Of a DNA stretch of 8,163 bases, positions 1 to 7,842 are shown in pieces; the stretch's first letter is position 1, and each line of letters starts with the position of its first letter. The stretch is taken from NCBI GenBank assembly GCA_020432595.1, contig JAGQGA010000220.1, positions 1 to 8,163 on the forward strand, written 5' to 3'. The DNA is from Anaerolineales bacterium. GTDB lineage: Bacteria > Chloroflexota > Anaerolineae > Promineifilales > Promineifilaceae. The notes below the pieces were generated by a model. The model was given only the letters and a program-made list of their open reading frames with translations. It was not told the DNA's origin and did no database searches. Made by a program: the position numbers and the translations under genes.

Positions 1-148
1 CTCCTGGCGGCCGGGCGACCAGCGTGTGTTTGTGGCCGACATTCGCAAGGCGCAGGCGCGGCTGGGCTGGGTACCCAAAGTGTCGCCGGCCGACGGGATT
101 CTGGATTTGTACCAGTGGGTGGCAGCGAACAAGGAGTTGTTTGTCTAA
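1..148 (+). CDS. NAD-dependent sugar-nucleotide epimerase/dehydratase, C-terminal end (partial)
   Basis: The frame opening at base 2 gives 48 residues before TAA at 146-148. The gene is cut by the left edge, so neither the Rossmann fold nor the catalytic Tyr-x-x-x-Lys can be seen. The tail contains W-R-P-G-D-Q-R-V-F-V-A-D-I-R-K-A, then L-G-W-V-P-K-V-S-P-A-D-G-I and a final L-Y-Q-W-V helix. This is the usual end of extended short-chain dehydrogenase/reductase enzymes such as CDP-paratose 2-epimerase, dTDP-glucose dehydratase and GDP-mannose dehydratase relatives. These enzymes act in the cytosol on nucleotide sugars used for surface glycans. The exact substrate cannot be read from the tail; CDP-paratose/tyvelose epimerase-like is my best guess. 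It converges on the glycosyltransferase operon and shares bases of its stop codon with it. The family call is good and the specific product is uncertain. Confidence 0.75.
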   Translation, partial: SWRPGDQRVFVADIRKAQARLGWVPKVSPADGILDLYQWVAANKELFV

Positions 149-1713
149 TCGGCCGACCGCCTGAACTCATAAATAGCCAAATCGTTAAAGTGAATCGTAT
201 CCTGTAGCTGGTAACGGGCTGCGAGCCAGGCGAGGTGGGGGTGGGTGGGCTGACCAGCGGCTACGGCTTCGGCCTGGGCACGGTCAAGTAGGATGAAGTA
301 GATGCGAGGGTGGTTGGAAACGGCCGTTTCCAAATCCACCGTTGCGAACAGCCCCATCGCCGCTTGCGTGGCATACGCCAGTGTGTCGCTGGGGCTGCCC
401 GGCTCATCGGCAATAAACTGCTGTGGAATGGTGCGGTTATAGAGATAAGTTGGGAAAAATGTTAGCTTGTTGCTATGGATGATGACGGCATCAGGTTCAG
501 TGTGGTCGGTTAGCCAGTTGGCGGCGGCAGCAAAAGGGGGGCGGGGGAAGCTGGCGTAGGTGTAATGATTGAGAAGGGAGGCGGTGAGAATAACGGCCGT
601 TAATCCCCCCAGTACCCACTTCATCCCCTTTGGCATTTTACTTGCGCCAAACACAAGCCCCAGCAGCACCCAATAGGTAAGTGCCGATGGTAAAAACGCC
701 CGCAGCGTATAAATCGGTTGGAATTGAGAGACTAGAAAGCCCAGGGTAGGGGGGAGCAGGGTGGTGAAACCAAGAAGCTGTAGGGCTGGAGAGCGCAGCG
801 CAGCCGATGTGCGGAGTGCCATTAGCAAGAAAATAGGGACAAGGAGGCTGAGAAAAAGCGCCAGCGGGAGCAGCCAGCCTGGAAGTGCCTCGTTGTCATA
901 GGCAACGTGAAAAGCCAGCAGCGTTTGCAGCAGTTCGGTGAGACCGGGGCGTACCACCCAATAGCTTTGCTGTACGCGCCCAAGCTGGCTGGGCAAAATG
1001 GTCAGCCACGGCGCGTAAAGCAGCAGCATGAGGGCATAGCTGCCAACAACCCCCTGCCACCGCTGCCACCCTTGACGAACCCACTGCCATGCCGCCCACA
1101 TCCCCAGGCCTGCCAGATAAAGTGCTCCCAGCGTGTGGGTATACAACACCAATGCCCCGCAAACACCAACTAGCGTCCAATCGCGTCGCTGGTTGGTCCG
1201 CCAGCCGCGCAGCCAAAAGAGGGTTGCCAGCAGGGTCAACAAACCCAGCAGCCCATACATACGGGTCTCTTGAGAGTAATAGATGTGGAAGGGGGAAAGG
1301 GCGATGAGCAGGGCGGTGAAGAGGGGGAGGGATTGGGGATTGGAGATTGGAGATTGGAGATTCTGCCCAATCTCTAATCCCCAATCTCTAATCTCCTCTG
1401 CCAAAAGATAGTCTACAAACACGGTTGCCGTGCCGAACAGCACCGACAGCAGCCGCACGGCGGTCGGAGCCTGGCCGACGAGCTGCATCCAGCCGTGGAG
1501 GAGCCAGAAGTAGAGCAGGGGGTGGACGTTGGCGGCGATGCCGTTGGTGATGGTGATGGTGCCGCGAAGCATGGCGGTCAGCGATTTTTCGGCAAAGAGG
1601 ATGGCAAGGGCTTCGTCGTACCAGAGAGAACGGCCGTTTAAGTTCACCAGCCGCAGCCCAAAAGCCAGCAGCAAAATCAACAGCAGCCAGCGATGTTGGC
1701 GCAGTTGGTTCAT
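145..1713 (-). CDS. GT-C family membrane glycosyltransferase (PMT_2/ArnT-like), third gene of the operon
   Basis: This is a 522-residue polytopic membrane protein with roughly ten hydrophobic segments up to about residue 381 and a soluble C-terminal part of about 140 residues. After the first membrane helix (about 9-22) come W-Y-D-E-A at 31-35, H-P-L-L-Y-F-W-L-L-H around 64-73 and S-P-F-H-I-Y-Y-S-Q-E-T-R-M-Y-G-L around 140-155. These are hallmarks of the dolichyl-phosphate-mannose-type mannosyltransferase/ArnT group. In that group the acidic pair in the first outer loop is the likely catalytic site, and the donor is a polyprenyl-phosphate sugar. The donor and acceptor here are unknown. Residues about 109-130 are encoded by a heptamer hairpin repeat and look like an in-frame insertion between two membrane helices. 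The ATG overlaps the upstream stop as ATGA (1710-1713), so translation is probably coupled. The TAG stop overlaps the stop of the convergent epimerase gene. Confidence 0.88.
   Translation of the reverse strand: MNQLRQHRWLLLILLLAFGLRLVNLNGRSLWYDEALAILFAEKSLTAMLRGTITITNGIAANVHPLLYFWLLHGWMQLVGQAPTAVRLLSVLFGTATVFVDYLLAEEIRDWGLEIGQNLQSPISNPQSLPLFTALLIALSPFHIYYSQETRMYGLLGLLTLLATLFWLRGWRTNQRRDWTLVGVCGALVLYTHTLGALYLAGLGMWAAWQWVRQGWQRWQGVVGSYALMLLLYAPWLTILPSQLGRVQQSYWVVRPGLTELLQTLLAFHVAYDNEALPGWLLPLALFLSLLVPIFLLMALRTSAALRSPALQLLGFTTLLPPTLGFLVSQFQPIYTLRAFLPSALTYWVLLGLVFGASKMPKGMKWVLGGLTAVILTASLLNHYTYASFPRPPFAAAANWLTDHTEPDAVIIHSNKLTFFPTYLYNRTIPQQFIADEPGSPSDTLAYATQAAMGLFATVDLETAVSNHPRIYFILLDRAQAEAVAAGQPTHPHLAWLAARYQLQDTIHFNDLAIYEFRRSAD
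314..333. repeat. Perfect 20-bp palindrome centred on an AACGGCCGTT copy
   Basis: TTGGAAACGGCCGTTTCCAA is a perfect inverted repeat with no spacer. It extends the decamer by five bases on each side and lies inside the last glycosyltransferase gene, near its 3' end. Confidence 0.85.
1331..1396. repeat. Heptamer tandem repeat in inverted arrangement, inside a glycosyltransferase gene
   Basis: The left arm (1331-1362) is made of GATTGGG, three GATTGGA and a partial unit. The right arm (1366-1396) is CCCAATC, TCTAATC, CCCAATC, TCTAATC and TCC. The arms are near-complementary with a three-base centre, so the element can form a long hairpin. It is read through in frame as residues about 109-130 of the GT-C protein, between two membrane helices. 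It shares the ATTGG-type unit with the arrays at 5083 and 7768. Confidence 0.8.
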
Positions 1714-3290
1714 GGTGTTGCTCCCAGCAGTTGATAAATCTTCACCCCATCGCGGTCATAGACCAGTTCGCCGGGCGGTGGGATGGTGGTGTCAAACCGC
1801 GCTTTTTCAACGGTGCCGACATAAATATAGGTGATGCCCCAACGCGCAATGGTGGCTTGGCGGGCAGTGGGAGAGGCTGCCCAAAAAGTGGTTAATTCGT
1901 CCAACTTGTCGGCCAAATGCAGGGTGAGGAAGGGTTGACCGATAAAAACACGGCCGTTTGTGTAGCGCGGCAGCGTGTTGCCAACCGGGTAGTGGGACAG
2001 CACCAAATCGGTTTCGTTGAGTTGGGGTGCCAGCCAGGCAACGGCCGTTAAATCGGCCTCGGGCAAAAAAAGCGGAAAGTTGGGGCGCACCAGCGGCGCA
2101 TAAAGCAGCAGTGCCAGCAGTGCCATTGTGGAGGGGGTGGTGAGGATGAGCAGGACGCGGCGGAGGGTGGCGACGGCTGCGGGGGGGTGCGGGAGGCGGG
2201 GCAAAACGGCCGTTTCCAGCCCAAACGCCGCCAGCGTGGCCCAGGGAATAGTCAATCCCAACAAAAAGCGCCCGGCAAACGGCAGCGGCAGATACAGCAC
2301 CAGCACATTGGCAATGGCCCAAATGGGCAGCAGTGGGTCACGCCGCGCAGCCAGCCAGTGCCACAGCCCCACCAACCCTAGCAGCCCAATCAATCCCAAC
2401 CCAGCCATTAGTTGCGGCGGCGTGGGGGATGTAATCACATTGCTTAACACATGGGTTTGCTCCCAGTTGGGGTCTTGCCGCGCCCAGATGGCATAATAGG
2501 CAAACAGCGGCAGCAGCGGCAGCAGTGCCATGCTGCCCCAGCCCCACAGCCAGCGCGGCAGGCGGCGTTCTTGCACGGCCCCAGCCAGCAGATAAAGTGC
2601 CGCGACAAGCCCGGCTACGGAAATGTTGTAGGGGTAAAGCAGCCCCAGCAGCGTGCTGCAAACAGCCCCCAGCAAGCCCCAGCGTTGCCGTTTGGTTTGC
2701 TGTAATTGGTACAGGCTGGCAAAGAGCAGCGTTTCCGCCGCCAGCCCCAGGGCAAAATGGGGCGTGCCGAGCATAGGCAGCAAAACGCCCCATTCGCTTT
2801 GGCCGAGATCCGGCAGGGTTTGCAGATTGGTTTGCAGCAGCGGAGCCAGCAGCCAGCCGAGTCCACCGCCAAAGACGGCCAGCAGCCATGCCGTTTGCTG
2901 CCAGCGCGGCAGGATAATGCCTGCCCAAACCCAAAGCACCCACAATAGCAGCAGCCCAGCCAGCAGGCGGGCGACGTGGAAAAGGGTGTTGGTGGCGGTA
3001 GAGAGGTGGGGGGGAGAAACGGCCGTTAACAGCCGCCCCAGCAGCAAATAGAACAGATAAGTGAGCCGTGGGGGGATGGGTTCGGGCGAGAAATTAAAAT
3101 GGAACAGCCAGTTACCCTCCGCTCCCTGACGAATGGCGGCCAGATAGACGCTATGGTCATCGGGGTTGATGAGGCTGCCCATAAACTGCTGCCCGGCCGG
3201 GGCCAGCAGCGGGGCAGCGGCGTTGGGCAACCAGGCCAGCAACAGTGCTAGCACCACCCAGAATGGCAAAATAAAACGGCGTTGACTCAT
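1710..3290 (-). CDS. Polytopic GT-C-like membrane protein, probable glycosyltransferase, second gene of the operon
   Basis: I place the start at 3290, giving 526 residues (M-S-Q-R-R-F). That ATG forms an exact ATGA overlap with the upstream TGA and is followed by a positive stretch and a membrane helix. The in-frame start 33 bases upstream would put a nonconserved tail inside the previous gene. The protein has about eleven or twelve hydrophobic segments and a soluble tail from about residue 401. The first outer loop carries N-P-D-D-H at 42-46, in the position where GT-C enzymes hold their acidic catalytic pair. G-T-P-H-F-A-L-G around 175-182, Y-P-Y-N around 219-222 and R-F-L-L-G around 341-345 are other likely family motifs. 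The tail ends V-K-I-Y-Q-L, like its neighbours. I do not recognise a characterised homologue. Placement between two clearer GT-C genes supports a role in glycan assembly. A membrane protein of other function remains possible. Confidence 0.78.
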   Translation of the reverse strand: MSQRRFILPFWVVLALLLAWLPNAAAPLLAPAGQQFMGSLINPDDHSVYLAAIRQGAEGNWLFHFNFSPEPIPPRLTYLFYLLLGRLLTAVSPPHLSTATNTLFHVARLLAGLLLLWVLWVWAGIILPRWQQTAWLLAVFGGGLGWLLAPLLQTNLQTLPDLGQSEWGVLLPMLGTPHFALGLAAETLLFASLYQLQQTKRQRWGLLGAVCSTLLGLLYPYNISVAGLVAALYLLAGAVQERRLPRWLWGWGSMALLPLLPLFAYYAIWARQDPNWEQTHVLSNVITSPTPPQLMAGLGLIGLLGLVGLWHWLAARRDPLLPIWAIANVLVLYLPLPFAGRFLLGLTIPWATLAAFGLETAVLPRLPHPPAAVATLRRVLLILTTPSTMALLALLLYAPLVRPNFPLFLPEADLTAVAWLAPQLNETDLVLSHYPVGNTLPRYTNGRVFIGQPFLTLHLADKLDELTTFWAASPTARQATIARWGITYIYVGTVEKARFDTTIPPPGELVYDRDGVKIYQLLGATP

Positions 3291-5314
3291 CGCAGCGTAT
3301 ACAGCGTGTAGCTGCCCTCCCAAACGGTCACGGGGTCGAGCGCGGTGTCAATTAGCTGCTGCAAAATTGCCAAATCGCGGTCGGTAATCGGTTCAAACCC
3401 CTGCTCGTGCAAAAAGGTCAGCCCGGCATGGTTGATGAGGACGTGGGTCAGCCCACGGCGGCGCCACGCGGCGGCGATGGCGGCGGCATCTTGCCCTTGG
3501 TAATGGGTGGCGTGCAGATGAAAGTCCAGCATACTGTCGGGGTGGCAGATGACGCGGCAGCCATAGCTGCGCGGCTCCCACAAAAACAGCACTTCAGATG
3601 CGGGCGGCAGTTGGTTGATGCGTTCCAGCACCTGTTGATAGACACCCAGCCGCCGCTGGCGAAATTGGCTGGCTGTTTCTTGCCCCAGCAGCACCGGCAG
3701 CGGGTTAATTTGGGCAAATTGGGTAAGCTGGGTAAGCAGCAGCAGCGCCAGGGTGAGGCTTAGGGCGACCTGCGCCAGCCAGTGGACGTCAAGCTGGGGG
3801 CGGGTGAGGGTGCGAAGGCGGGTGAAGGCAAGGGCGGATAAAACGGCCGTTATGCCAAACATGGGCAGCAGCAGCCGCGATTGTACTAATTGCGCCGACC
3901 GCGCCATGCCCCACAGCCAAAAGAGATAGTTGATGCCAAAAAAAAAGATGAGTTGCCAAACGGCCGTTTTTTCACGCGGCTGTAGCTTGCGCCACACAAC
4001 CGGCAGCAGCATTAACCCGCCTAGCACAAAAGGGCCGATGGTGGCGTCAAAATATTGGCTGCCGCTGCTGCCTAAAATGGTGGCCTCGAACGGGGCGGTT
4101 AGCAGTCGCCAGGGAGCCGTTGCCAGCAGCCCCGTGCCGGGGCGGGCATAAGACCAACTGCGCCAGGTGTCCCAATAGAGACCGCTGTTGAAGAAAAAGG
4201 GATAGACGGGGTTGCCGGTGGTGAGCCAGTTTTTGAGCAGCCAGGGGAGGGTGGTGAGGGTGGTAACGGCCGTTAATACCCCTATCTGTTGCCCCATTTG
4301 CTGCCACGGTTCGTGGCGTAGCTGCCACACCAGTGCCAGCCCAACGGCGATGGGGATGATGATAGCGGTGTATTTGACCCCGGCGGCAAAGCCGCAAAAG
4401 AGGCCAAGCAGTACCGACGTTTGGTTGTTGGGGATGGTTTGCCACTGGTAGAAGAGGTAAAAAACGGCCATAGCGTAAAAAAGCAGCGTCAAATCTACGT
4501 AGGCATCACCCAATTCTTCGAGGAAAAGGGGGATGGTGAGGAGGATAACGGCCGTTAACCACGCCGCCTCTCGCCCAAACGACTGTCGCGCCAGTGCCGC
4601 TGCCATGATTATCCCCAGCATCCCATAGCTAAAGTGGAGCAGCTGTGCGATGCCATCACCCCACAGCAATATCCCCAGCAAAAACTGCATTTCCCCAAGC
4701 TGGGGAAAGCCCAGGAAGGCTATGTCGCGCAGGTGGGCGATGCGGCCAGCGTCAGCAAAAAGCTGGGGGCCGGTTAGGTGATAGGTGAGAGCATCCCAGG
4801 CGGTTTCGGGGGTGAGTGCTAGCAGGAAGGCGATCAGCAGGCTGGCAATGGCGTAAAGGGCGAGCCAGCGTTCAAAGCGGGTGGTTGGTTTGGGGAGTTG
4901 GGGGAGGGTGTGAAAAACGGCCGTTAATTCCCGCCGCACCCCTACCGCCAGCAGCAGTACCATTCCCCACGCCACCAGCGGCTGCAGCAGCCCTACTAAC
5001 CCGATGACCAGCGTCAGCAGCGACAAAACAGCCAGCCCTAATCCACCACAAAGCCCTAACCATGCCCATCCCTTCGCAATTTGCCAATCGCCAATCGCCA
5101 ATCGCCAATCGCCAATCGCTTTTGCCCCCAGCGCAGTCGCCAGCCACAGCATTCCCAGCCACACCACCACGCTGCCCAACGTGCGCCCTAGCCCAACCAA
5201 TAAGGGTAAATCAAATGGTTTGTGTGCCCAAAAGTAGGCGGCGATGAGGAAAAACAGCCAGAGAATGGTCAAAACGGCCGTTAATCCCCACCCCCATTCA
5301 CCCTTTTTATACAT
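3287..5314 (-). CDS. Large GT-C-like membrane protein, probable glycosyltransferase, first gene of the operon
   Basis: This is a 675-residue protein with about 12-14 hydrophobic segments and a soluble tail from about residue 535. W-D-A-L-T-Y-H-L at 173-180 is the acidic outer-loop motif of a GT-C branch. It is followed by G-D-A-Y-V-D at 269-274, G-V-K-Y-T-A at 312-317, L-P-W-L-L-K-N-W-L-T-T-G-N-P-V-Y-P-F around 356-373 and S-R-L-L-L-P around 479-484. The K-N-W...T-G-N-P-x-Y-P block is typical of bacterial RgtA/B/C/D-like and related membrane transferases. Such enzymes move sugars from polyprenyl-phosphate donors on the outer face of the membrane; the sugar and acceptor here are unknown. Residues about 65-82 (I-G-D-W-R-L-A-I-G-D-W) are encoded by a perfect GATTGGC heptamer array and are probably a tolerated insertion between helices. 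The ATG at 5314 has GAGGTG seven bases upstream. It is the promoter-proximal gene, and its TGA overlaps the next ATG. Confidence 0.85.
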   Translation of the reverse strand: MYKKGEWGWGLTAVLTILWLFFLIAAYFWAHKPFDLPLLVGLGRTLGSVVVWLGMLWLATALGAKAIGDWRLAIGDWQIAKGWAWLGLCGGLGLAVLSLLTLVIGLVGLLQPLVAWGMVLLLAVGVRRELTAVFHTLPQLPKPTTRFERWLALYAIASLLIAFLLALTPETAWDALTYHLTGPQLFADAGRIAHLRDIAFLGFPQLGEMQFLLGILLWGDGIAQLLHFSYGMLGIIMAAALARQSFGREAAWLTAVILLTIPLFLEELGDAYVDLTLLFYAMAVFYLFYQWQTIPNNQTSVLLGLFCGFAAGVKYTAIIIPIAVGLALVWQLRHEPWQQMGQQIGVLTAVTTLTTLPWLLKNWLTTGNPVYPFFFNSGLYWDTWRSWSYARPGTGLLATAPWRLLTAPFEATILGSSGSQYFDATIGPFVLGGLMLLPVVWRKLQPREKTAVWQLIFFFGINYLFWLWGMARSAQLVQSRLLLPMFGITAVLSALAFTRLRTLTRPQLDVHWLAQVALSLTLALLLLTQLTQFAQINPLPVLLGQETASQFRQRRLGVYQQVLERINQLPPASEVLFLWEPRSYGCRVICHPDSMLDFHLHATHYQGQDAAAIAAAWRRRGLTHVLINHAGLTFLHEQGFEPITDRDLAILQQLIDTALDPVTVWEGSYTLYTLR
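5083..5117. repeat. Perfect heptamer array, five copies of GCCAATC
   Basis: Five exact tandem copies of GCCAATC fill 5083-5117; on the coding (minus) strand they read GATTGGC. Seven bases is not a codon multiple, so three units encode a seven-residue period (G-D-W-R-L-A-I), which is visible in the first glycosyltransferase. A degenerate unit precedes the array at about 5075-5082. No opposing arm is present, unlike the other two arrays. Confidence 0.85.
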
Positions 5315-5321
5315 TAAAATT

Positions 5322-5327
5322 CACCTC
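5322..5327 (-). promoter_or_regulatory. Ribosome binding site of the glycosyltransferase operon
   Basis: On the minus strand GAGGTG lies seven bases before the ATG at 5314. This supports that start codon. The other two genes of the operon have no independent leader and begin inside the stop codon of the gene before. A TATAAA at 5329-5334 on the same strand sits too close to the Shine-Dalgarno sequence to be a convincing -10 box. No clear promoter for this operon was found. Confidence 0.65.
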
Positions 5328-5354
5328 TTTTATACCCCTCCCTTTCTCCCGCTT

Positions 5355-5363
5355 TGCTATGAT
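5355..5363 (+). promoter_or_regulatory. Candidate extended -10 promoter for the amidase gene
   Basis: TGCTATGAT reads as an extended -10 element: TG, one base, then TATGAT, one mismatch from TATAAT. No good -35 box is seen at the usual distance, which extended -10 promoters can tolerate. A start near 5370 would give a leader of about 100 bases that begins just before the hairpins. This is inference from motif and position only. Confidence 0.3.
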
Positions 5364-5375
5364 ACCTTCACTTTG

Positions 5376-5446
5376 GCCAAAAATGAGCCCATTTTTGGCG
5401 AGGGATCACGCACAGGGCACTGGGGCAACCCAGTGCCTACCTCGCT
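5376..5446 (+). promoter_or_regulatory. Structured leader of the amidase gene (two hairpins, possible RNA switch)
   Basis: The first hairpin pairs GCCAAAAATG (5376-5385) with CATTTTTGGC (5390-5399), a perfect 10-bp stem with an AGCC loop. The second pairs GGCACTGGG (5416-5424) with CCCAGTGCC (5429-5437), a perfect 9-bp stem closed by a GCAA tetraloop (GNRA class). GCGAGG (5398-5403) can pair with CCTCGC (5440-5445) to enclose the second hairpin, leaving a 12-base internal loop on one side and two bases on the other. ACCTC (5439-5443) could alternatively pair with GAGGT (5460-5464) in the Shine-Dalgarno region. The first hairpin alone could instead be a DNA operator, as it overlaps the palindrome TTTGGCCAAA (5372-5381). 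The structure is directly visible; a regulatory role is inferred. Confidence 0.45.
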
Positions 5447-5457
5447 GACTAAATCCG

Positions 5458-5463
5458 AAGAGG
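5458..5463 (+). promoter_or_regulatory. Ribosome binding site of the amidase gene
   Basis: AAGAGG lies five bases before ATG at 5469. It decides the start: the reading frame is open back to an ATG at 5244, but that start has no comparable site. It would also place a non-signal sequence in front of a good signal peptide. Confidence 0.7.
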
Positions 5464-5468
5464 TTTGT

Positions 5469-7766
5469 ATGAACTTTAGAACCCGCATGTCTGATGCAAT
5501 TTTACTGCTGTTTGCGCTGCTCGCCATTGCTTACCCGGTTGCGGGCTTTGATCTGTTGCAAAAACCGGAAACCAAGGTGGCGGATTTGACCTTTGCTGGC
5601 CCGAACTTTGAGGGGGCAGAGACGCAGGGGGTCATGGCGCAGGCGGAAGGGCTGCAATTGCTGGATCCATCTATGACCAGCACGTATACATCGCCGGTCA
5701 TTGAAGCACCGATTCCGTTTAACGTGCTGTTTCCCCAGTGGATTGCCGATATACCGGCCGGAACGGGGATGAGCATTGCCGTGCGGACGGGAACGGAAAA
5801 CGGCCGTTGGGGCGACTGGTACCCGGTTGAAGAAAATCACGATTGGACGCGCCCTGAAGACCCTGACGTGGTGGGGACGATGATTACCGTTTCGGCGGAA
5901 GATATTGTTCATCGTTACGTGCAGTATTCCATTGGCTTTAGCCGTTATGATGGTCAGGCCACCCCGCTGCTCAAAGAGCTGCATTTTACCTTTATTGACT
6001 CCACTGCTGGACCCACAATGGAAGAAATGGTGGCTCAGCAGCAGGCGCTAGATGCCAGCCAAGCCCAAACCTTTGCGGCTGAGGGCGTTGCTCCTAACAA
6101 GTTTGCCAAACCAGCCGTTATTAGCCGTCAGGTTTGGTGTACTGATCCTGACTGCAACTACAGCGATGGGCTGGCATATGAGCCTGTTACCCACCTGATT
6201 TTGCACCACACTGTTAGCAGCAACAGCAGCAGCGATTGGCCTGCCGTTGTTCGCGCCATTTGGAAATTCCACACCTACTCTCGCGGCTGGGGCGACATCG
6301 GCTACAACTATCTAGCTGACCGCAACGGCGTGATCTACGAAGGGCATTTGGGCGGCGATGATGTGATTGGCACCCACGCTTCAGCGGCTAATCGCGGCTC
6401 GATGGCACTGTCGCTCATTGGCACCTTCACCCTGCCCGATGATTCGCCGCCCGGCATTCAGCCGCCGCAGCCGATGCTGGAAGCAGCCGCCAATTTGTTT
6501 GCCTGGAAAGCTGACCAAAAGGGCATCAATGTCTACGATGCCGGCCGACTCCCCAACATGACCTGGGGTTTGCCCAAACTTATGGGGCACCGTGACGTGT
6601 ACGGTGGCACCAACACCGAATGCCCCGGTGAGCAAGCATACCGGCTGCTGCCCTGGCTGCGCGATGCCGTTGCCCAGCGGCTTGGTTATCAGTCACCTTA
6701 TGTCTATATTGATGAAACAAGTAGCAACTTCAAGCGCAGCAACAACAGTTGGCATGAAGGGCCTGCTGGTTGTGGCAACAACGGCCACTCCTTCTACACC
6801 TGGTCGGTGACTGACCCCAATGCCAGCACCAACTGGGGCGAATGGACGCTGGCTGTGCCGGTGGAAGGGGTGTACGAGATTGAAGTGTATGCGCCGTACT
6901 GCACAACCGGCCGTTCCGAAACCGACGGAGCGCGGTATACGGTGACACACGCCAACGGCAGCAGCAATGTCACCATCAGCCACAATGACAAGGTGGGGCT
7001 GTGGATGTCGCTGGGTGAGTTCCCGCTGCGGGCAGATGGCTCTTCCAAACTGCGGTTAACCGACTTAACCAGCACCGACGAAGGGCGCGGGGTCTGGTTT
7101 GATGCTGTCCGGTTGCGGCTGGTGGGCGGCAGCGTGCCACAAACGCCGACCATTACGACGCAGCAGCCAACGGCCGATCTTTGGCTTACCAATCGAACGG
7201 TGGCTTTTAATTGGTTGGTGGGGAATGGGGGCGGCGTAGAGCGCACCTGGCTGCAGGTGGCAACCGACCCAGGCTTTACCAACCTAGTGTTGGATTTGAA
7301 TTGGGCTGGCCTGGTGCAAACCTTTACCCAAACCTTTACGCAAGATTTTGGTGAGCTATATTGGCGTGTGGTGGTGAAGACGGCGACGACGCAGATTGTT
7401 GCCCCACCGTCTAAGTTTGCCATTGATGCGACGGGGCCAGTAACGGCCGTTCATGGCTACTACATCCTCGGTTGGAACGGCCAACAAGTTGTGGCCTGGG
7501 GCGGCCAGGATAATTTATCTGGCATTGCTACTTATAAGGTTGAATACCGGGAGGCCGGCGATGCCAGTTGGACAACCTGGTTGGCAAACACAGCCGCCAC
7601 TACTGCCACCTTCACCCCGCCCAACCCCGCGCTGGTTTATGAATTCCGCAGCCAAGGCATTGACCATTTGGGTAACGCCGAACCTGCCCACGCTGCGGCC
7701 GATCTCAACACCCTACAGGCAAAACCGCTGCCTCATGCTATAATGATGCCAGTCATTATGAAATAG
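5469..7766 (+). CDS. Secreted N-acetylmuramoyl-L-alanine amidase, PGRP/Amidase_2 type, with golvesin-like and Fn3-like domains
   Basis: The protein has 765 residues. Residues 1-26 form a signal peptide (positive start, hydrophobic core, V-A-G before the likely cut). Residues about 76-178 are a beta-rich N-terminal domain of the kind often found before bacterial PGRP domains. The amidase domain spans about 236-405. Expected zinc ligands are His246 (in L-I-L-H-H-T-V), His374 (G-H-R-D-V) and Cys385 (T-E-C-P-G), with the conserved tyrosine at 279 (D-I-G-Y-N-Y). All catalytic positions are present, so it should cleave the bond between muramic acid and L-alanine in peptidoglycan outside the membrane. 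Residues about 411-553 resemble the golvesin/Xly carbohydrate-binding-like beta-sandwich, ending G-V-W-F-D-A-V-R-L. Two Fn3/Ig-like domains follow (about 557-640 and 660-745). The tail ends A-I-M-M-P-V-I-M-K, possibly a sorting signal. It could serve cell-wall turnover, division or attack on other bacteria. Confidence 0.9.
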   Translation: MNFRTRMSDAILLLFALLAIAYPVAGFDLLQKPETKVADLTFAGPNFEGAETQGVMAQAEGLQLLDPSMTSTYTSPVIEAPIPFNVLFPQWIADIPAGTGMSIAVRTGTENGRWGDWYPVEENHDWTRPEDPDVVGTMITVSAEDIVHRYVQYSIGFSRYDGQATPLLKELHFTFIDSTAGPTMEEMVAQQQALDASQAQTFAAEGVAPNKFAKPAVISRQVWCTDPDCNYSDGLAYEPVTHLILHHTVSSNSSSDWPAVVRAIWKFHTYSRGWGDIGYNYLADRNGVIYEGHLGGDDVIGTHASAANRGSMALSLIGTFTLPDDSPPGIQPPQPMLEAAANLFAWKADQKGINVYDAGRLPNMTWGLPKLMGHRDVYGGTNTECPGEQAYRLLPWLRDAVAQRLGYQSPYVYIDETSSNFKRSNNSWHEGPAGCGNNGHSFYTWSVTDPNASTNWGEWTLAVPVEGVYEIEVYAPYCTTGRSETDGARYTVTHANGSSNVTISHNDKVGLWMSLGEFPLRADGSSKLRLTDLTSTDEGRGVWFDAVRLRLVGGSVPQTPTITTQQPTADLWLTNRTVAFNWLVGNGGGVERTWLQVATDPGFTNLVLDLNWAGLVQTFTQTFTQDFGELYWRVVVKTATTQIVAPPSKFAIDATGPVTAVHGYYILGWNGQQVVAWGGQDNLSGIATYKVEYREAGDASWTTWLANTAATTATFTPPNPALVYEFRSQGIDHLGNAEPAHAAADLNTLQAKPLPHAIMMPVIMK

Positions 7767-7767
7767 T

Positions 7768-7842
7768 TAATTGAGAATTGGGAATTGAGAATGATGAATG
7801 AATGTTCACCATTCTCAATTCTTAATTCCCGATTCCCAATTT
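7768..7842. repeat. Intergenic heptamer palindrome between the amidase and reductase genes
   Basis: The left arm contains units such as AATTGAG, AATTGGG and AATTGAG. The right arm has ATTCTCA, ATTCTTA, ATTCCCG and ATTCCCA. The inner stem pairs 7782-7796 with 7807-7821 with one mismatch around a ten-base loop, and the outer units pair imperfectly. It fills most of the 93-base gap after the amidase stop. It could weaken read-through or protect the mRNA end, but it has no trailing T run, so I do not call it a terminator. Nothing else is seen in this gap except the ribosome binding site. Confidence 0.75.

Follow-up and report, generated by a model that had tools for sequence, protein, structure and literature searches.

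The stretch of DNA analysed here, 8,163 nucleotides of contig JAGQGA010000220.1 from an Anaerolineales bacterium (the window), carries fourteen exact copies of a ten-base palindrome, AACGGCCGTT. It represents, in the window, a palindrome iterated across a whole clade, the octamer ACGGCCGT with core CGGCCG, which one Chloroflexota order carries about 1-2 times per kb and which, within the samples searched, is confined to that order. We put at about even odds, roughly 0.5, the proposal that the word is a selected, clade-wide palindrome which a putative protein reads and acts on as a maintenance signal; both the reader and its action are what we infer from the patterns described below.

By direct count the fourteen decamers of the window span positions 319-328 to 7442-7451, and every place given for them in the initial annotation was confirmed. 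In 200 dinucleotide-preserving shuffles of the window the decamer occurred at a mean of 0.02 copies and a maximum of 1, which rules out chance as the origin of the fourteen. A fifteenth octamer at 1950-1957 lies within CACGGCCGTT, and the A..T extension of octamer to decamer is found in 14/15 cases. Near-miss neighbours of the decamer number 3 with one mismatch and 6 with two. The 40 bases flanking the copies have a mean identity of 33% and a maximum of 60% (91 copy pairs); a longer dispersed repeat was rejected since these flanks are not homologous. They do have a bias in common, with A or T adjoining the decamer and 5' sides rich in G.

The genome-wide results describe relatives that were reached through the amidase gene of the window, not the window's own genome. 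These relatives are Chloroflexota metagenome-assembled genomes (MAGs); the top protein matches of the amidase stand at 98%, 84% and then 62%, the 62% match being to Chloroflexota. Counts of AACGGCCGTT against a reversed control word were 3085 versus 25, 2334 versus 22, 840 versus 17 and 2526 versus 22 in four relatives, and 12 versus 15 and 8 versus 11 in two genomes with Promineifilum-titled loci. The reversed control word was in excess only in genome G311 (3665) and, mildly, in G683 (886). With sites masked, ACGGCCGT occurred at 40-77 times its third-order Markov expectation in five contigs of four relatives (800 kb). The word therefore extends well beyond the window, across whole genomes of relatives, and these counts support the initial annotation in its proposal of a highly iterated palindrome comparable to highly iterated palindrome 1 (HIP1) of cyanobacteria.

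In the order concerned, ACGGCCGT reaches at least 400 per Mb in 30 of 56 genomes, the next lower value being 179 per Mb; 27 of the 56 lie at 991-2102 per Mb and another at 514. At the level of the class, 10/298 genomes have at least 400 per Mb and all ten are also in the order list. In a phylum sample of 400 genomes, more than 22 decamers were found in the reference genome only. An amidase scan of genome contigs returned 28 loci, at which the strongest over-used palindrome, called by one rule, was ACGGCCGT or its decamer in 14, GCGGCCGC in 1 and none in 13; the palindrome survey skipped 13 of 60 pieces, all under 5 kb, and its genomes were hand-picked. On an amidase tree built without locus L027, the word label changes 2 times for 15 word-rich rows versus a shuffled mean of 9.6. 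Several deep forks of this tree are unresolved, and it does not separate gain from loss. The position of G311 differs between trees: it falls among word-rich genomes in a tree of D12 methylases and outside them in the amidase tree.

The initial annotation had taken the decamer as the unit, which holds as the local form in the window; across the clade the unit is ACGGCCGT, built on the core CGGCCG. In the 800 kb, 1390 of 2326 CGGCCG hexamers have A..T flanks, followed by AC (101) and GT (99), which are one class on two strands. The further A..T flank that completes the decamer in the window is found at 0.31 of sites in G004 and 0.18 in G304, and an outer C..G flank at 0.14 of sites in G229 and at 0.24 and 0.17 in G301. 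At three and four bases from the word, G is more frequent than in the background (0.42-0.49 and 0.44-0.56 versus 0.27-0.29, in five large contigs), which suggests that the fuller unit is GGnnACGGCCGTnnCC. Changing the outer base of ACGGCCGT gives one-off variants at 2.02 times expectation (A>T 4.0 times), and the inner positions give 0.83, 0.60 and 1.20; for comparison, outer changes range over 0.75-1.73 and inner ones over 0.57-2.05 in two control sets poor in the word. Of the 14 word-rich sets, 13 have CGGCCG as their most over-used palindromic hexamer and one has it in second place, in a ranking that lists the six lowest and two highest per set.

Restriction avoidance, one of the roles suggested by the initial annotation, has the wrong sign, as the word is in excess and avoidance falls on several other palindromic hexamers. 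Strongly depleted palindromic hexamers are found in each large contig (for instance GGGCCC, 0 versus 130 expected in G004), and the depletion in G004, G304, G229, G301 and other relatives (loci L138-L177) resembles restriction pressure; depletion of some palindromic hexamers is seen in word-poor sets too. Other words are also over-used, namely a second family around GGTAATTG and CCAATTAC at L138-L149 (G004) and L158-L167 (G229), and the palindrome CTTGCAAG at L228 (G255), with 7 copies in 20 kb versus 0.5 expected.

Sites were kept better than matched octamers in all eight word-rich pairs of relatives that were run. The controls were octamers of equal GC and CpG content, and shared sites were counted from both genomes. 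Sites and matched octamers were unchanged in 42/45 versus 436/587 cases at 95.3% identity, 46/48 versus 284/544 at 92.6%, 42/44 versus 552/856 at 92.0%, 84/89 versus 406/876 at 88.8%, 36/41 versus 160/647 at 76.5%, 16/19 versus 36/273 at 72.9%, 4/7 versus 34/266 at 72.7% and 16/24 versus 40/251 at 71.9%; three of these pairs (84/89, 42/45 and 46/48) share genomes. Three word-poor pairs had too few sites to count (0/1, 2/2 and 0/0).

The same contrast holds with the encoded residue fixed. For conserved residues of four-fold boxes, the third base was kept at 0.99, 0.90, 0.88 and 0.80 within sites, from close to very far pairs, versus 0.79, 0.57, 0.48 and 0.43 outside them. Codons touching a site by their first bases only gave 0.82, 0.38, 0.41 and 0.62, with a rise in the very far set alone. 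In far pairs, ACG codons were kept in 36/37 cases inside sites versus 52/132 outside. These codon-matched comparisons bear directly on the idea that the word is an artefact of codon use, protein sequence or composition, or a spread repeat or mobile element. Such an artefact could be suspected from the reading frames, as Thr-Ala-Val (TAV) is read at 12 of the 14 copies in the window and at 641 of the 1230 copies in open reading frames (ORFs) of the 800 kb. The two other frames carry the word as well (427 and 162 copies), as does non-coding DNA, where site density is 0.92-2.59 per kb versus 1.52-2.12 per kb in coding DNA. Thr-Ala-Val without a site is rare (29 tripeptides), in the two main frames these codons are less well conserved when they lie outside sites, the flanks are not homologous, and the reversed word has no such excess outside the two genomes named above. 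A codon or amino-acid effect was thus rejected, and we regard the artefact explanation as a whole as refuted by the codon-matched controls, with a negligible chance of being correct. The 641 site-encoded tripeptides versus 29 others indicate that the word also shapes proteins. ORFs for the codon, frame and skew counts were taken by a simple longest-frame rule, with no gene finder.

Beyond the word itself, its surroundings show a switch in GC skew centred on the site. With strands folded, the skew on the 5' side of 1390 sites is 0.24, 0.28, 0.19, 0.15 and 0.14 in bins to 30 bases, then 0.06 and 0.05, and 0.03 at 61-90 bases. The other 936 CGGCCG hexamers, as a control, have a skew of 0.07 within 5 bases and at most 0.04 beyond, and no skew run was found around seven control palindromes. 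The switch extends to about 60 bases from the site and is seen in each of the five contigs. At third codon positions the skew is 0.27, 0.42 (7-15 bases), 0.27, 0.14 and 0.11 (46-60 bases) in bins starting with 1-6, and at second positions 0.20, 0.07, 0.06 and then about zero; at 88 sites outside ORFs it is 0.26, 0.25 and 0.17. Since the skew is strongest at third codon positions and is present away from ORFs, it is an effect on DNA. The site-centred switch points to something that acts on the DNA at each site, and the wide skew may be either the composition preference of a footprint or the scar of strand-specific processing.

Related genomes favour other words. The over-used word is GCGGCCGC in G173 (loci L010, L214, L236 and L237; 139 versus 3.4 expected, with GCCGGC at 0 versus 51), TGCCGGCA in G311 (L018, L235, L252 and L080; 45 versus 1.9 expected) and plain CGGCCG in G157 and G275. 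In G311, CGGCCG occurs once versus 33 expected in one count and twice versus 36.7 in another, and GGCC 147 times versus 425. The skew is about 0.2 at 6 to 20 bases and 0.17 at 21-30 bases around GCGGCCGC in G173, and 0.11-0.24 out to 20 bases around the 45 TGCCGGCA sites of G311.

Phage-like contigs, too, carry the word at high density. When viral contigs were scanned for two decamers lying 5-35 bases from each other, 25 loci came up; 16 of these, from 13 contigs, were dense, with 273 octamers in 136.6 kb. In five dense loci, 14 of the 20 ORFs tested had PHROGs matches; the site-bearing genes were portal, head-protease and tape-measure genes in three loci, and DnaC-like, ParA-like, anti-repressor, transglycosylase and FtsK-like genes in two others. 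Among the nine loci that failed the density rule, some look like coincidental pairs; L284, for example, has two copies at 39% GC. Carriage by phages could be read as the mark of a DNA uptake or Chi-like tag, a word that licenses import or shields DNA ends and that phages carry to survive in the cell. Consistent with such a role, loss of cytosine methylation at the HIP1 core halves conjugation in Synechocystis (PMC6604393). We think this explanation improbable. To our knowledge, no known DNA uptake word is a perfect palindrome, and neither is Chi.

The mechanism that we favour, a selected maintenance signal, would involve a protein with two-fold symmetry that recognises both the CGGCCG core and the pair of Gs 3-4 bases out, and that acts on DNA at such sites. 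The word would mark every resident replicon, chromosome and phage alike, for a task that may be repair or recombination processing, chromosome organisation or the marking of DNA as self. Selection would keep the word, and the action of the protein at the sites would leave the wide skew on resident DNA. A more specific version is put forward tentatively, namely a HIP system in Chloroflexota that is independent of the HIP1 methylases, in which a putative protein would read CGGCCG-type palindromes, work on the DNA at them and leave a strand-asymmetric scar over some 60 bases. In this version the word is shared by hosts and their phages, and a lineage could exchange it (ACGGCCGT, GCGGCCGC, CGGCCG, TGCCGGCA) without losing the flanking skew.

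The main rival to a selected signal is methylase-linked writing, Elhai's model for HIP1, in which a CGGCCG-type methylase together with methyl-directed mismatch repair would create and keep the word, and the excess would be a by-product of repair. Several of the observations above suit this model: one-off variants concentrate at the outer position (2.02 times), as Elhai reports for HIP1 (PMC4390886), the alternate words of related genomes parallel Elhai's alternate HIPs, the strand-asymmetric skew near sites could be the scar of repair tracts, and replicated phage DNA would likewise be written on. What counts against it is the methylase search, made in 33 hand-picked genomes of which 17 were word-rich (at least 900 octamers per Mb). 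The initial annotation had pointed to a cognate orphan methylase, and none emerged: among four families (PF00145, PF01555, PF02384 and PF02086, with PF01555 assessed among the matches listed), no methylase group was common to all 17, enzyme specificities not being predicted. PF00145 was matched in 9/17 word-rich genomes and absent from 8, on which ground a 5-methylcytosine methylase was rejected as the common factor. PF02384 went unmatched in G001 and G306, and in G187 its matches were no better than E 3e-4. Among the matches listed, PF01555 was found in 17/17 (the sole G306 match at E 5e-4, the best in G001 at 9.5e-10), clustering of the fetched part gave no group spanning all 17, and the largest close group covered 6/17 word-rich genomes together with G157 and the word-poor G311, or 8/40 genomes. 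The RsrI-like methylase with its downstream ORF was rejected on account of this 8/40 distribution with word-poor G311 included. At L091 (2121-3920), this methylase is followed by a 255-aa ORF without Pfam or NCBIfam match that is kept in four loci and is perhaps an unrecognised restriction enzyme. Methylase groups adjoining BglII-type and TdeIII-type endonucleases look like ordinary restriction systems and were likewise rejected.

PF02086 (D12) was matched in 17/17 word-rich genomes, strongly and at full length in 15. In G304 the D12 methylase is similar to DpnII and Dam proteins, whose target is GATC, a sequence that the word does not contain. Word-poor genomes also have strong D12 matches and the D12 tree does not separate genomes by word, so D12 was rejected as the cognate enzyme. 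Vsr was matched in 7/33 genomes and, with just 5/17 word-rich genomes among them, was rejected as a common factor. As a completeness check, a MutL-domain match was found in 15/17 word-rich genomes and was missing in G229 and G306; gross incompleteness is thus not the reason for the missing shared methylase, and in G306, which lacks the MutL match, methylase absence is weak evidence. Based on these results we consider methylase-linked writing rather unlikely.

Several observations weigh against a selected signal read by a protein. No reader protein was found, and 26 of the 56 genomes of the same order have fewer than 180 ACGGCCGT per Mb, which implies that the function is dispensable or transferable to another word. 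Conservation alone cannot tell selection from a repair bias that rewrites the word, and the skew fits repair processing equally well. Inner one-off variants span 0.13 to 1.47 of expectation, position 4 variants (G>A 1.47, G>C 1.34) are both above expectation, and word-less Promineifilum-type genomes have an outer excess of up to 1.73 and CGGCCG at 331 versus 190 expected. Among codons, third-frame CGG and CCG were kept in far pairs in 4/11 cases inside sites and 156/367 outside. Flank bases are not clearly more conserved than background, and the two arms show no covariation beyond composition save at offsets 1 (z 4.2) and 10 (z 2.8); a flank hairpin was rejected for the latter reason. CGGCCG has only weak skew in G157 and G275. 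In phage-like contigs the skew drops from 0.21 within the first 5 bases to 0.07 at 6-10 and to about zero farther out; this near absence past 10 bases favours a scar that forms slowly on the chromosome of the host. The viral density is itself pushed upward by the two-site pattern and the density rule, which 9 of the 25 loci failed. Site spacing, to which the initial annotation had drawn attention, is close to random (coefficient of variation 0.88-1.25), with short gaps mildly scarce. Finally, the D12 tree has 7 label changes versus a shuffled mean of 10.8 (as low in 8/500), and one well-supported clade in it joins 9 word-rich rows and G311.

The copies of the window lie in four ORFs on both strands, as initially annotated. 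Two ORFs are PMT-type, one is Amidase_2/Golvesin_C and one has no Pfam match. On the minus strand, the ORF at 145..1713, a PMT_2-type membrane glycosyltransferase, holds three copies, at 319..328 and 592..601 (both read TAV) and at 1629..1638 (read Asn-Gly-Arg, NGR). The middle minus-strand ORF, 1710..3323, had no Pfam match at E 0.001 and holds three decamers, at 2040..2049, 2205..2214 and 3018..3027 (all TAV), together with the extra octamer. The third minus-strand ORF, 3287..5314, a PMT/PMT_2-type glycosyltransferase, holds six, at 3842..3851, 3959..3968, 4265..4274, 4547..4556, 4916..4925 and 5273..5282 (all TAV). On the plus strand, the Amidase_2 and Golvesin_C protein at 5472..7766 holds two, at 5799..5808 (NGR, the second of 2/14 so read) and 7442..7451 (TAV); its start was taken at an inner Met, 5472, and the open frame starts at 5244. 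The window also contains 7-base tandem repeats, at 5083-5119, 1331-1362, 1366-1395, 7769-7792 and 7811-7841, of the types GCCAATC, GATTGGA, AATCTCT, AATTGAG and ATTCTCA, some of them within ORFs. GATC is scarce in it (10 versus 23 expected).

Literature searches, confined to one open-licence library, turned up no account of a word of this kind in Chloroflexota. A count of repetitive extragenic palindromic (REP) elements in Ardenticatena maritima has no CGGCCG in its available text (PMC12306157), and the available part of PMC4653789 mentions clustered regularly interspaced short palindromic repeats (CRISPR) only. The description of HIP1 dates from 1995, yet papers of 2015 (PMC4390886) and 2019 (PMC6604393) still call its role unclear. 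A second system in another phylum and with another core, with alternate words and phage carriers, offers an independent comparison for HIP1, such that features common to both become candidates for its cause. If long-read data uphold the lack of a shared methylase, that lack would count against the main model in print. The skew switch, known here from Chloroflexota data, offers a new way in, as it can be sought around HIP1 at once.

Uptake sequences and Chi resemble the word as short words in great excess and differ from it in that they are not known to be palindromic. What marks an uptake sequence is that DNA carrying it is taken up preferentially. Chi acts on RecBCD or AddAB in an orientation-dependent manner, whereas the word here is palindromic and so has no orientation of its own.

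The closer comparison is with HIP1. The system described here belongs to the HIP1 class, though its phylum and its word are others; it matches that class in its palindromic genome-wide excess, density, GC content and outer variants. Elhai's description of the class also includes a methylase predicted for part of the word. Both words are perfect GC-rich palindromes, ACGGCCGT being 75% GC and its core 100%. The density of HIP1 is about 500-2500 per Mb (PMC4390886), a range into which 27 of the 56 order genomes fall at 991-2102 per Mb and one more at 514. In Synechocystis 6803, 88% of HIP1 sites lie in one 10-mer (PMC4390886), a palindromic flank extension like the 14/15 of the window. One-off variants of HIP1 favour outer positions (PMC4390886), as do those of ACGGCCGT, and selection is reported to maintain HIP1 (work cited in PMC6604393). 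The systems differ in word, HIP1 being GCGATCGC, of which the window has 0 copies, and in host, cyanobacteria for HIP1 and Chloroflexota MAGs here. They differ further in that no shared core methylase was found here (in the four families, with PF01555 among the matches listed), and in that the word here is dense in phage-like contigs, whereas the main text of the HIP paper, as available, contains neither 'phage' nor 'virus' (PMC4390886). Single cyanobacteria have alternate HIPs, namely GGCGCC, GGGATCCC, rCCGGy and GCsGC, and Elhai reported a gained cognate methylase in each of three such cases (PMC4390886). Similarly, single relatives in the Chloroflexota are dominated by another palindrome, GCGGCCGC in G173 and TGCCGGCA in G311.

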